This document shows positions 22,675 to 33,929 of a DNA stretch of 64,000 nucleotides, one piece after another. Location: NCBI RefSeq assembly GCF_041276405.1, contig NZ_JBGGGT010000001.1, positions 1,434,501 to 1,498,500 of the forward strand, written 5' to 3'. The translations under genes and the position numbers were made by a program. Source of the DNA: Microvirga sp. TS319. Lineage in GTDB: Bacteria; Pseudomonadota; Alphaproteobacteria; Rhizobiales; Beijerinckiaceae. The notes under the pieces are model-generated. The model had not been told where the DNA came from. It saw only the letters and a program-made list of their open reading frames with translations, and ran no database searches. The stretch's first letter is position 1, and every line of letters starts with the position of its first letter.

Positions 22675-23181
22675 ATGGCGAGCATGCAGATTCTCCTCTT
22701 CGATGTGTGCGGAATCGCCTGCGCCCTGCGAAGCACCTCTGTTCGGGAACTTCTCCCGGTGCCGCGCCTGTGGTGCCCGCCCGCCCTGCCGCGTCCGGTG
22801 GCGGGTTTCTTCAATCTTGGCGGTGCTGCGGTTCCGGTGATCCGGCTCGATGTGCTCCTCAGATTGAGGGCTGAGCCCACCTCGTCCGAGACAAACCTTT
22901 ATCGGCATCTCATCATGCTTGACGGCCTGTCTGTCTCGGGTCCTGCGGCGCTGCTGGTCGATCGGGTTCGGGATGTGGCCGACATCCATGGGGCGCAGGT
23001 CTCCCCGGTTCCGCCGGAGAGCAGTCTCAACGGATGTGTCGAGGCCGAGATTGATCACCAAGGTCAGCTTCTCCATCTGCTGTCCCTGGAGCGGCTTCTC
23101 TTCGCCGAAGAGAAACTGGCCCTCGATGAACTCAGTTCGCATGCCCGGACCCGGCTGGGCGAATGGATGGTATCAGCCTGA
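22675..23181 (+). CDS. CheW-like coupling protein 1
   Basis: This 168-residue CheW-domain protein is the first gene of the chemosensory operon. Recognisable segments are QILLFDVCGIACALRSTSVR at the N terminus, PVAGFFNLGGAAVPVIRLDV near residue 42, and LLVDRVRDVADI near 98. CheW proteins bridge the receptor and the CheA kinase. Two CheW genes flank CheR, as in Wsp-type systems. Its TGA stop overlaps the ATG of cheR (TGATG). The ATG at 22675 is followed by another Met four codons on; either could be used. Confidence 0.8.
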   Translation: MASMQILLFDVCGIACALRSTSVRELLPVPRLWCPPALPRPVAGFFNLGGAAVPVIRLDVLLRLRAEPTSSETNLYRHLIMLDGLSVSGPAALLVDRVRDVADIHGAQVSPVPPESSLNGCVEAEIDHQGQLLHLLSLERLLFAEEKLALDELSSHARTRLGEWMVSA

Positions 23182-24629
23182 TGGCTGCCCGAACCGCTCC
23201 TTCCTTACTCGCCGACAAGGATTTTCCTAGGCTGAAAAGCCTCATCGTCGAGCGGACGGGACACTTCTATTATCAGGACAAGGACGATCTGCTCTGGGAG
23301 CGGGTGTATCGGCGCTTTCAGGAAACCGGCGCGCGCAGCGCAGCGCAGTTGATCGCCCTCTTGGAGGATCCCGAGGCGGGCCCCGACGAATGGGCACGCC
23401 TGGAAGCCGAGATCACCATCGGGGAGACGTTCTTCTTTCGCTACGCCGAACAATTCGCGGCGTTGCGGCAGAGCATCCTGCCTGAGATCATCGCGCGAAA
23501 GAAGCACGATCGGCGCCTGCGGATATGGAGCGCAGGCTGTGCGACCGGGGCCGAACCTTACTCGCTTGCGATCCTCGTTCATCAGCTTCTCGGGGATGAC
23601 CTTCCCGACTGGCATCTCGGCATCGTCGGAACCGACATCAATACCCGCTTTCTCGAAACGGCGCGGCAGGCCCGCTTCGGCCCATGGGCGCTCCGGTCGC
23701 TCTCTTCGGAGGACAGGGCCGCATACTTCCTGCCGGTGGATCGCCAGCAATGGCAGGTCAGGCCGGAGTACCGCTCGCTCGTCCGCTTCGAACAGCACAA
23801 TCTGTTGAGCCTCCTCGACGGGAGCTCGCCGCTTCAATATTCCGAATTCGACCTGATTCTGTGTCGCAACGTCCTGATCTACTTCCACCCCGATACGGTG
23901 AACAGGATGGTCGTCGCCTTGCGCGACTGCCTCCTGGACGAGGCCTGGATGCTTCTGGGGCATGCGGAGCCCAATCCGTCCTTTGCGTCGCTGATGGAGG
24001 TCGTGAACCTTCCGGGGACGATCGCTTACAGGCGCCGTGACGGCAAGATCCCGGAGCCTGAAGCAGCGGTCGAGACCGGACCGGTCCCACACGAGTTGCG
24101 ACGGCCGGAGCCGCCGCGAATGTCCTTCCGTCCGGCACATCCCCACGTCGGTCCAGATCTCGGCCCACCGCGCGCCCCTGCGCCCAAGCCCCGACCGCCC
24201 ACTCCGCCCGCCGTTGCGTCCCCCAGTCTTCTGGCCGAGGTTCGCCGCAAGGCCGACGCCGGTGACCTCGTCGGCGCGAGCGCGATATGCAGTCGGGCCC
24301 TTCTGGCGGAGCCCCTAAACGCCACCCTGTATCTTTACCATGGATTGGTGTCCCAAGCTCTGGGGCGCCACTCAGAGGCGGAGGAGGCCTTCCGCCGCTG
24401 TCTCTACTTGGATAAGAGCTTTGCCATGGCGCATTATCATCTCGGTCTCCTGCTCTTGGCTCACGGACGCTCCGCCCCGGGACGCCGTGCTCTTGCGAAT
24501 GCGGCCAGGATCACCGCATCCCTGCCGGAAGGTTACCCCATTCCCGAAGGGGATGGCCTGACGGCGGGTGAGCTGCACAACCTTGTCCGGATCCACCTTG
24601 ATCCGGCTCCTCCCGGGCGGAGGAGGTGA
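23181..24629 (+). CDS. CheR methyltransferase with C-terminal TPR region
   Basis: This 482-residue protein methylates receptor glutamates using S-adenosylmethionine. The N-terminal CheR helical part is followed by AEITIGETFFFRY near 85 and the SAM site WSAGCATGAEPYSLA near 118. LILCRNVLIYF lies near 230. After a Pro-rich linker (about 300-350), three TPR-like helix pairs follow (LYLYHGLVSQALGRHSEAEE, then AFRRCLYLDKSFAMAHYHLG). CheR with TPR is typical of Wsp and other alternative chemosensory pathways. The start at 23181 overlaps the cheW stop; a frame extension to 23163 is also open. Confidence 0.88.
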   Translation: MAARTAPSLLADKDFPRLKSLIVERTGHFYYQDKDDLLWERVYRRFQETGARSAAQLIALLEDPEAGPDEWARLEAEITIGETFFFRYAEQFAALRQSILPEIIARKKHDRRLRIWSAGCATGAEPYSLAILVHQLLGDDLPDWHLGIVGTDINTRFLETARQARFGPWALRSLSSEDRAAYFLPVDRQQWQVRPEYRSLVRFEQHNLLSLLDGSSPLQYSEFDLILCRNVLIYFHPDTVNRMVVALRDCLLDEAWMLLGHAEPNPSFASLMEVVNLPGTIAYRRRDGKIPEPEAAVETGPVPHELRRPEPPRMSFRPAHPHVGPDLGPPRAPAPKPRPPTPPAVASPSLLAEVRRKADAGDLVGASAICSRALLAEPLNATLYLYHGLVSQALGRHSEAEEAFRRCLYLDKSFAMAHYHLGLLLLAHGRSAPGRRALANAARITASLPEGYPIPEGDGLTAGELHNLVRIHLDPAPPGRRR

Positions 24630-31998: not shown

Positions 31999-33929
31999 CC
32001 TTGCCGAACGACATGAACTCAAGGAGTGGCACGATCCTGGTCGTCGACGACGAGCCGGATATCCTGGTTGCCCTGGAGGATCTGTTCGAGGAACAGTACC
32101 GCGTTGTGAGCACCACGTCGCCGGTCCAGGCTCTTGCGATCATCAGACGCGAGCCCGATATCGCGATCATCATCTCCGACCAGCGCATGCCGGAAATGCC
32201 GGGCGACGAGTTCTTGGCCAAGGCGCGGCACGACACGGACGCGGAAGCCATCCTGCTTACGGGCTATGCCGATATCGAGGCGGTCATCGGTGCGGTCAAT
32301 AAGGGCCGGATCATGGCCTACGTGCCCAAGCCCTGGGATCCGGAGGCTCTGTTGAACATGGTGGGCGCAGCCTACCAGCGGCGCCGTCTGGCCCAAGAGC
32401 TCGACACGGAGCGCGCCCTTCTGCGCGGACTGATGGAAAGCTCCAGCGACCAAATCTCGTTCAAGGATCTGGACGGGCGGTTCGTGCGCCTGAACACCAG
32501 CAAGGCGCAGAGTCTCGGCCGCGATCCCGATCAATGCGTCGGCTGCCAGGAGCGCGACTTCGTCGCGGCCGAACGCGCAGCCTTAATCGAGGATGCGGAG
32601 CGGCGGGCCATCTCGGCGCGCGCGCCGGACGAGGTTGTCGAGGAAAGGGTGCTGTCAGAGGGGGGGGCCCAATGGATCCTCATCAATCACATCCCCATTC
32701 TAGACGAGTCCGGAGCCGTCACGAACCTCGCGACCATCGAGCGCGACATTACTGAGCAGAAGCTCATGGAAATGCGTCTGCGGCAAGCGGACAAGATGCA
32801 GGCGCTCGGCACGCTAGCGGGCGGCGTGGCGCATGATTTCAACAACCTGCTGATGGCCGTTCTCGGCAGCCTTGAGCTGGCGTCACGACGTACTTCGGAT
32901 GATCCTCGCCTGGCGCGTCTCCTGCAGAATGCCACTTACGCCGCCGAGCGCGGAGCATCCTTGACGCAGAGGCTTTTGAGCTTCAGCCGCCAGCGTGACT
33001 TGAATCTTCAGGCTGTCGACGTCAATCAGATCATCCGCGGCATGGACGATCTGCTGGGACGGACGCTTGGGGGCATCGTTGAGGTCAGGCGCAATCTGGC
33101 TGAGCGTCTTTGGCCCGCGCTGGTCGATCCGGATCAGTTGGAACTGGCCATTCTCAATCTGTGCATCAACGCACGTGATGCCATGACCGAAAACGGGACG
33201 GTGACAATCTCCACCCGCAACGAGGCAGTGAACGAGAACCAAGTCACCGATCTGGGCAGCGGTGACTACGTGGTGATCTCTGTCACGGATACTGGAGCGG
33301 GCATGCCGCCGGAGATCCTCGCCCGGGTCCTTGAACCGTTCTTCACCACGAAGGAAATCGGAAAGGGGACCGGGCTCGGTCTATCCATGGTCTATGGCCT
33401 CGCCCAACAATCCGGCGGTACTGTCGTCATCAGAAGTACGATGGAGGTCGGTACGTCCGTCGACCTCTATCTGTCCCGGACATTCATCGATGGATCTGTT
33501 GCGCCTCGCGACGGGACGGAAACCGTCGTTGCAAGTCCAAAGATGCGCATCCTGCTCGTCGATGACGACCAGGAGGTCAGAGTTGTGACGGCGGCCTATT
33601 TGCACGAGATGGGGCATCGGGTCGTGGAGGCGTCCAGCGGATCATCTGCTCTTGAGATCCTCAAGGACAACGATCAGTTTGACCTTCTGGTCGCTGATTT
33701 CGCCATGCCGATCATGACAGGACTCGACCTGGCCGAGCGTGCCAGAAAGCTCAATCCGACCTTGGGAATTCTTCTTATCACCGGCTATGTCGATCCTAAC
33801 CGGATTCCGGAAGCTTATTCGATCCTGAATAAGCCGTTTACCTATAGCGAACTAGCGACACGCCTCGGCGAGATCATCACGGATCAGGAGAGATGTGTTC
33901 CGGAGAGCACCGTTCCCGTGGCGCTGTAG
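31995..33929 (+). CDS. Hybrid histidine kinase REC-PAS-HisKA-HATPase-REC
   Basis: This 644-residue cytoplasmic hybrid kinase starts at ATG 31995, overlapping the previous stop (ATGA). Domains: REC (ILVVDDEPDILVALED; IISDQRMPEMPGDEF; YVPKPWD), PAS (QISFKDLDGRFVRLN near 155), HisKA (GGVAHDFNNLLMAVL near 280), HATPase (NLCINARDAM, GTGLGLSMVYG) and a C-terminal REC (ILLVDDDQEVRVV; LLVADFAMPIMTG; ILNKPFT). The first receiver is of the type found with HD-GYP outputs, a possible clue to a c-di-GMP-related ancestor. Its last four codons and stop coincide with an IS481 remnant, so the natural C terminus may be slightly altered. No output gene follows in the operon. Confidence 0.87.
   Translation: MTLPNDMNSRSGTILVVDDEPDILVALEDLFEEQYRVVSTTSPVQALAIIRREPDIAIIISDQRMPEMPGDEFLAKARHDTDAEAILLTGYADIEAVIGAVNKGRIMAYVPKPWDPEALLNMVGAAYQRRRLAQELDTERALLRGLMESSSDQISFKDLDGRFVRLNTSKAQSLGRDPDQCVGCQERDFVAAERAALIEDAERRAISARAPDEVVEERVLSEGGAQWILINHIPILDESGAVTNLATIERDITEQKLMEMRLRQADKMQALGTLAGGVAHDFNNLLMAVLGSLELASRRTSDDPRLARLLQNATYAAERGASLTQRLLSFSRQRDLNLQAVDVNQIIRGMDDLLGRTLGGIVEVRRNLAERLWPALVDPDQLELAILNLCINARDAMTENGTVTISTRNEAVNENQVTDLGSGDYVVISVTDTGAGMPPEILARVLEPFFTTKEIGKGTGLGLSMVYGLAQQSGGTVVIRSTMEVGTSVDLYLSRTFIDGSVAPRDGTETVVASPKMRILLVDDDQEVRVVTAAYLHEMGHRVVEASSGSSALEILKDNDQFDLLVADFAMPIMTGLDLAERARKLNPTLGILLITGYVDPNRIPEAYSILNKPFTYSELATRLGEIITDQERCVPESTVPVAL

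Follow-up and report, generated by a model that had tools for sequence, protein, structure and literature searches.

How does a chemosensory operon act on its cell when it ends in two histidine kinases and encodes no diguanylate cyclase? The question is raised by an eight-gene cluster of the alphaproteobacterium Microvirga sp. TS319, located at positions 22675-33929 of a 64-kb stretch of DNA (contig NZ_JBGGGT010000001.1, positions 1,434,501 to 1,498,500), all of which was analysed and is called the window here. It sits on the 2.07-Mb contig of a 6.26-Mb genome assembled in two contigs. With modest confidence, we read the cluster as an 'alternative cellular functions' (ACF) system of the Che3/CheS3 lineage, in which CheA would control the first kinase (HK1) through its first receiver (REC1), HK1 would act on the second kinase (HK2), and an unlinked regulator would tune cellulose or matrix production. 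So read, the operon is a variant of a described design, with kinases swapped relative to Che3, and not a new kind of pathway.

Operon anatomy

Pfam profiles confirm the gene order and coordinates given by a first-pass annotation of the bare sequence, with eight intact genes on one strand:

22675..23181, plus strand, CheW 1 (PF01584, 57.7 bits)
23181..24629, plus strand, CheR methyltransferase with a long C-terminal tail (PF01739, 153 bits; PF03705)
24626..25234, plus strand, CheW 2 (PF01584, 64.9 bits)
25236..26912, plus strand, methyl-accepting receptor (MCP) with predicted helical periplasmic sensor, HAMP and signalling domain (PF00015, PF00672)
26940..29201, plus strand, CheA with C-terminal receiver (REC), Hpt-HATPase-CheW-REC (Pfam)
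29198..30274, plus strand, CheB methylesterase with receiver, REC-CheB (PF01339, 186.1 bits; PF00072)
30271..31998, plus strand, HK1, intact REC1, REC2 (pseudo-receiver), long helix, HisKA, HATPase (Pfam, residue columns, structure model)
31995..33929, plus strand, HK2, REC-PAS-HisKA-HATPase-REC (Pfam)

Four-base frame overlaps join CheR to CheW 2, CheA to CheB, CheB to HK1 and HK1 to HK2, and the widest intergenic gap, from MCP to CheA, is 27 nt. The CheR reading frame opens at 23163, its most likely start being the ATG at 23181 that overlaps the CheW stop, and that of the MCP opens at 25128, with GTG 25236 as the most likely start. The annotation's 'CheR-TPR' is correct as to CheR; the TPR part falls away, as no Pfam TPR profile scores on the protein. 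HK1 carries neither a C-terminal receiver nor, by Pfam, a PAS domain. CheA, which ends in a receiver and has no P2 domain by Pfam, follows the trend of ACF-class CheAs, in which a receiver is present and P2 usually absent according to excerpts of PMC10542144. The operon is proposed to be of the ACF, non-flagellar kind.

Family models place the proteins only broadly. Among the best 25 NCBIfam families per protein, no cut-off is reached for HK1, HK2, CheA, the receptor or CheR, the two CheWs have no NCBIfam match, and the sole cut-off reached by any cluster protein is that of the general CheB subfamily PRK00742. The kinase of HK2 is CckA-like at 364 bits, under that NCBIfam family's 1000-bit cut-off. 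The AlphaFold model of the MCP (mean predicted local distance difference test, pLDDT, 76.8; predicted template modelling score, pTM, 0.39) shows a helical sensor flanked by two membrane-like helices; it gives only weak matches to solved four-helix sensors (best E about 0.16), and the modelled shape is in line with such sensors. The annotation's statement that the locus lacks a GGDEF gene holds for the whole window, with 18 GGDEF domains in the rest of the genome, and a diguanylate cyclase output inside the cluster is rejected for this reason. No Rfam element reaches its gathering threshold in the window.

Conservation of the arrangement

The same cheA-cheB-HK1-HK2 order is found in 48 loci, the window and 47 further ones, and a layout that recurs in this way is not due to chance. 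The 48 comprise 35 congeners, genome G040, ten loci of other genera or families (L154-L161, L164, L165) and two plasmid records, from Methylobacterium bullatum and Pseudoroseomonas cervicalis. They are not all distinct species, L157 and L110 being nearly identical, and detection is incomplete at L150 and L158, which are cut by contig ends, and at L139 (G040), where the second CheW is undetected at E 1e-10.

Within Microvirga, a CheA orthologue (at least 66% identity) is present in 35 of 48 congeners, the window's genome included; of the 13 cluster-less congeners, three give no match at E 1e-40 and the other ten only CheAs that are about 26-32% identical. The annotation had proposed looking for relatives that keep the core and lose the kinases. 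HK1 and HK2 follow cheB in all 35 cluster-bearing congeners, none of which lacks either kinase (0/35); more distant Azospirillum clusters retain the core with other modules. The co-presence of CheA and HK1 agrees in 37 of the 37 congeners searched (both in 28, neither in 9). In broader samples, at most two (class), seven (family) and two (phylum) candidates were scored per genome, against 22 in the congener searches, so that the counts are lower bounds: CheA occurs in at least 5 of 385 class genomes (E 1e-90 or better), at least 14 of 149 family genomes (E 1e-60) and at least 33 of 398 phylum genomes (E 1e-75), the window's genome counted each time. A contig search with HK2 kept 80 loci, with up to 46% identity over parts of the protein. 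Hpt H45 of CheA, and D685 of its receiver with four other tested residues, are conserved in all 48 orthologues.

Receivers of the two kinases

Both kinases begin with a receiver, as annotated, and in each it is intact. Residues D18, D61, T91 and K113 of HK1 REC1 are invariant in 48 of 48 orthologues. The phospho-site column of REC2 holds N in 34, D in 10 and other residues in 4. The window copy has D205 at this site, but G159/E160 stand in for the acidic pair, and A230 and S265 occupy the positions where Thr/Ser and Lys are expected. Judged by these columns, REC2 is degenerate, a pseudo-receiver like REC2 of CheS3. The HK1 model (mean pLDDT 79.4, pTM 0.52) contains two receiver folds and one long helix running into the kinase. 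Among solved structures, PleD is the best fold match to HK1 (2v0n and others; 295 columns, E 9e-19). In PleD the second receiver is an adaptor pseudo-receiver; its output is a GGDEF domain and that of HK1 a histidine kinase. All 48 HK2 orthologues have an intact N-terminal receiver, save one Thr-to-Ser change. The C-terminal receiver of HK2 is missing in G394 and may therefore be a sink or a side path.

Kinship of the core

The annotation called the operon Wsp-like, a term that can mean shared parts or shared descent. Trees were computed for CheA (careful maximum likelihood, 45 rows), CheR (39 rows) and CheB (43 rows, both quick trees), and include 16 of the 48 arrangement loci, seven of them from Microvirga. 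In the CheA tree, the 16 HK1-HK2 rows, four Azospirillum rows and one Indioceanicola row form a 21-row clade (support 100/100). The identical 21 rows recur in the CheR tree (Shimodaira-Hasegawa approximate likelihood-ratio test, SH-aLRT, 97), and the CheB tree unites 22 rows (SH-aLRT 100), including L162, which was too short for the CheA tree. In all three, the core groups with the Indioceanicola cluster, whose kinase has the CheS3 architecture, and the window copy pairs with the congener G452 (CheA 100/99, CheR 99, CheB 93). The Wsp-gene-order rows, with L180 and L163, form another CheA clade (100/100, branch 0.88); these rows are set by gene order (L169, L184) and not by a named Wsp sequence, and no GGDEF was seen in L180. 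Long-branch warnings in the CheR and CheB trees all concern rows outside the 21-row clade. Because three trees separate the cluster from the Wsp-order loci, it is Wsp-like in parts and not of the Wsp lineage.

At L163 (G489), on a 4.25-kb contig of a same-family draft, CheA and CheB group with Wsp; for this draft contamination (4%) is possible. Excerpts of a published survey report Wsp from beta- and gammaproteobacteria only (PMC8552884).

Comparison with described systems

The closest described design is Che3 of Rhodospirillum centenum, which serves cyst formation. According to excerpts of its description (PMC3868531), CheA3 phosphorylates, experimentally, REC1 of the REC-REC-PAS-HWE kinase CheS3, and in the authors' model this lowers the kinase activity of CheS3 towards CheY3; the REC1 Asp of CheS3 lies at residue 54, and its REC2 has Ala (A191). 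As far as these excerpts go, Che3 shares with the window operon its parts list (two CheWs, CheR, CheB, one MCP and CheA-REC), as well as a second kinase in which REC1 is intact and the REC2 behind it degenerate. CheS3, however, has a PAS domain and an HWE kinase and signals to CheY3, whereas HK1 has a HisKA kinase and no PAS, and the place of CheY3 is occupied by HK2. In the window, 18 related cluster loci and 15 flank loci, the cluster has no stand-alone CheY3-type receiver reading frame next to it; the only other receiver frame in the window is an interrupted one near 1222-1533. The annotation knew of no described pathway with this layout; R. centenum Che3 and, judging from the excerpts, the WspH system of Burkholderia (PMC4324302, PMC8552884) speak against that. 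In the literature searched, mostly without subscription papers, neither the HK1-HK2 layout nor a cellulose-operon link is described for such clusters. The operon extends a biochemically worked-out case of CheA controlling a second kinase to a layout conserved in Microvirga, M. bullatum, P. cervicalis and other alphaproteobacteria.

A plasmid cluster of Indioceanicola profundi (L216) ends in a REC-REC-PAS-HWE kinase with the REC1 Asp at residue 54. REC2 of this kinase lacks an Asp where one is expected (191 Val, 192 Ala, compared with A191 in CheS3). Residue 453, His in CheS3, is not His here, so the CheS3 numbering is not kept throughout. HK1 13-351 is 40% identical to this kinase (155 bits), with the kinase part unmatched. 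L216 has CheR, a CheW-sized reading frame, MCP, CheA and CheB in the window's order and differs in its one HWE kinase, in the lack of an HK2 match in the locus and in a first CheW undetected by similarity. Four Azospirillum clusters (L111, L214, L215, L217) show the window's core order in annotated records and belong to the common CheA, CheR and CheB clade, but there the tandem receiver is a protein of its own (266 aa in L214), with a kinase-REC encoded separately behind it. The L214 protein matches HK1 14-296 weakly (61 bits), and, read by eye, the Azospirillum REC1 is degenerate and REC2 intact. By gene count only, these clusters are perhaps Che3 of A. brasilense, and excerpts of PMC8561660 and PMC6406031 give a flocculation link in Azospirillum. 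Two further candidates were set aside: Bradyrhizobium CheA3, for which the published legend gives no receiver domain, and a Niveispirillum relative of HK1 (L218, 32%), which has no CheA core beside it.

Variety of output modules

Elsewhere the parts of HK1 and HK2 are found in other combinations. In G551 (L162), an HK1-type tandem receiver and an HK2-type kinase-REC are fused in one protein. The receiver part scores 157 bits against HK1 and 36 against HK2, the kinase part 298 bits against HK2 and 96 against HK1; a further kinase may follow, as the contig ends soon after. Where the core is related, with CheA about 29-35% identical, the clusters close with widely differing modules. L166 has REC-PAS-HK-REC with an HK2-like kinase and no separate HK1, together with REC-EAL; L167 has a large hybrid kinase and a REC-HD-GYP protein; L168 pairs REC-PAS-HK with a receiver-cyclase-Ser/Thr-kinase protein; L183 has a hybrid kinase with Hpt; and L171 and L182 carry receiver-CheX proteins alongside hybrid kinases. 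Among the annotated loci, then, kinases are no rarity as outputs, and the window pair is one variant.

A bolder reading, which we offer tentatively and consider doubtful as a whole, is that the tandem receiver (REC plus pseudo-REC) might be a plug-in adaptor whose kinase has been repeatedly exchanged (HWE in Indioceanicola, HisKA here, a fused CckA-like kinase-REC in G551, free in Azospirillum), and that in Microvirga a three-kinase chain CheA-HK1-HK2 might be wired to the neighbouring cellulose operon. If this were true, chemoreceptors could set matrix production without a dedicated diguanylate cyclase. As a natural series with a constant receiver module and varying kinases, these loci are useful for learning how receivers switch kinases.

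Linkage to a cellulose operon

In most cluster-bearing Microvirga, the cluster directly follows cellulose genes. In G017, the region directly upstream encodes bcsN, bcsA with PilZ, bcsB, a family 8 glycosyl hydrolase and a TPR gene (Pfam); bcsN and bcsB were also found by scan in G029, and BcsA, BcsB and the hydrolase were matched by tblastn in eight of nine fetched congener upstream flanks, the exception being G452. Of 34 assessable congeners, 30 have the end of the TPR gene that closes the cellulose operon 85-249 nt ahead of cheW; the window's genome, G452, G024 and G022 are the exceptions, and G446, cut by a contig end, is not assessable. In 27 of the 35 cluster-bearing congeners, BcsB precedes CheA by 8.2-8.8 kb on the same strand, and the other eight have it on another draft contig (five), have none (two) or are the window's genome (one). 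Counted without regard to position, BcsB is present in 33 of the 35 congeners with the cluster and in 10 of the 13 without it, so that its possession alone is no evidence.

Proposed mechanism and alternatives

The proposal builds on the observed gene content, order, conservation, kinship, receiver residues and cellulose linkage, from which we infer every phosphotransfer step, the order and sign of the steps and the output. The sensory core would consist of the membrane receptor with its helical sensor, the two CheWs and CheA, adapted by CheR and CheB. Phosphate from CheA would pass to its own receiver as a sink, to CheB and to HK1 REC1, and the last of these is expected from the homology of core and tandem receiver to Che3/CheS3. 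REC2 is probably an adaptor, as in PleD, so that phosphorylated REC1 would switch the HisKA kinase. HK1 would then act on HK2 at its N-terminal receiver, which would take CheY3's position and is the natural acceptor to follow, and HK2 with its C-terminal receiver would signal to an unlinked regulator. The cascade from CheA that the annotation suggested is plausible, and its phosphate flow is predicted. The operon most likely controls the production of cellulose or matrix. Since BcsA carries PilZ, cellulose should still need cyclic di-GMP (c-di-GMP), from cyclases encoded elsewhere, and the REC-EAL protein of L166 hints at c-di-GMP as an intermediate.

Several points weigh against this reading. 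HK1 has a HisKA and not an HWE kinase, so the rules of CheS3 may not carry over, and the link to R. centenum Che3 runs through Indioceanicola and not through an R. centenum sequence directly. The evidence does not single out HK1 over HK2 as the target of CheA. No output regulator was found, and a receiver profile built from the cluster's own receivers (E 1e-6) detected no conserved regulator adjacent to the cluster, either in the window or in the 18 cluster loci and 15 flank loci covered. Congener counts are non-independent events. The window's own genome has its cellulose operon on the other contig, away from the cluster, and G452, a close congener, and G022 have the cluster without a BcsB match; together with BcsB in cluster-less congeners, these cases make the linkage neither obligate nor exclusive. 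In other genera, the flanks fetched gave no BcsA or BcsB match at E 1e-15.

Three other explanations were weighed. That HK1 and HK2 are parallel outputs, with CheA phosphorylating HK2 or both kinases directly and no chain between them, we regard as unlikely but the strongest of the three. The near-invariant N-terminal receiver of HK2 would suit it, as would L166, where the core is followed by an HK2-like kinase alone; against it, CheA controls the tandem-REC kinase in the CheS3 case, as excerpted (PMC3868531), and the tandem-REC module is common to the 21-row clade, weakly so in Azospirillum. Still less probable is that the two kinases do not act downstream of CheA at all and are co-transcribed, independent sensors feeding a common unlinked regulator. 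HK2 does have a PAS domain and a kinase resembling CckA, which uses an unlinked phosphotransferase, and transfer from CheA to the kinases is here a prediction. Such independence, however, fits poorly with the agreement of CheA and HK1 presence across the congeners searched, with a single gene run kept at every one of the 48 loci and with the fact that the only other receiver partners of CheA in the cluster are CheB and its own receiver.

The reading closest to the annotation, a Wsp system with its cyclase replaced by kinases, is very improbable. It shares a parts list with the window (two CheWs, CheR, CheA-REC, CheB), and an output kinase in place of WspR, with a biofilm and colony phenotype, is known from Burkholderia according to the available excerpts (PMC4324302, PMC8552884). 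There, as in the CheA-to-HK1 scheme preferred here, CheA is proposed to drive a receiver-kinase (WspH, in the WspHRR system) instead of a diguanylate cyclase. That system, however, belongs to the Wsp lineage and has one kinase, found only 5' of the cluster and only in Burkholderia in the excerpted survey (PMC8552884), whereas the window has two, both at the 3' end. The same source defines Wsp by wspA-wspF synteny with wspA, the MCP gene, first; in the window, the receptor gene is fourth and there is no terminal REC-GGDEF. L169, L180 and L184 form a separate long-branch clade in the CheA, CheR and CheB trees, with no WspH sequence among the rows, and the REC-pseudoREC module of HK1 is common to a CheS3-like protein. 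Membership in Wsp was rejected on the trees, the receptor position and the missing REC-GGDEF, and membership in the WspH group on kinase position and on a core outside the Wsp-order clade.

Genomic setting of the window copy

The cellulose locus of the window's genome (L208, C2:3836000-3855000) runs bcsA, bcsB, hydrolase and TPR gene, and the very next gene encodes a dipeptide-binding protein. In congeners this gene flanks the cluster downstream, so the cluster is missing here from its usual slot. The tight linkage in most cluster-bearing Microvirga and this natural empty slot make the output directly testable. The window cluster lies between two copies of an IS6-type insertion sequence (IS), which run in the same direction and are 79% identical:

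21517..22281, strand not assigned, IS6/IS240-type remnant upstream of the cluster, 79% identical to 35736-36501 in the same orientation
35736..36548, minus strand, IS240-type transposase downstream of the cluster (PF13610, 146.1 bits)

Diverged IS6/IS240-type copies surround the cluster at 17914-18984, 21517-22288, 35736-36505, 41776-42482 and 6000-6690. The copies suggest repeated insertion and rearrangement. The cluster may either have moved or have been reacquired.

Other features in the window

The frame at 1191-1536 is a CheY-like receiver with an in-frame stop, behind the end of a histidine-kinase-like frame, and looks broken. An 886-aa reading frame without a Pfam match (38446-41106) lies beside a beta-helix protein (36555-38459). 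On the minus strand at 44097-47167, adjacent reading frames encode an autotransporter beta-domain and passenger repeats, possibly one split gene. A RES-domain protein (20402-20905) and an Xre/MbcA/ParS-type antitoxin (51242-51922), which we take to be two halves of a known toxin-antitoxin type, are 30 kb apart and not adjacent.

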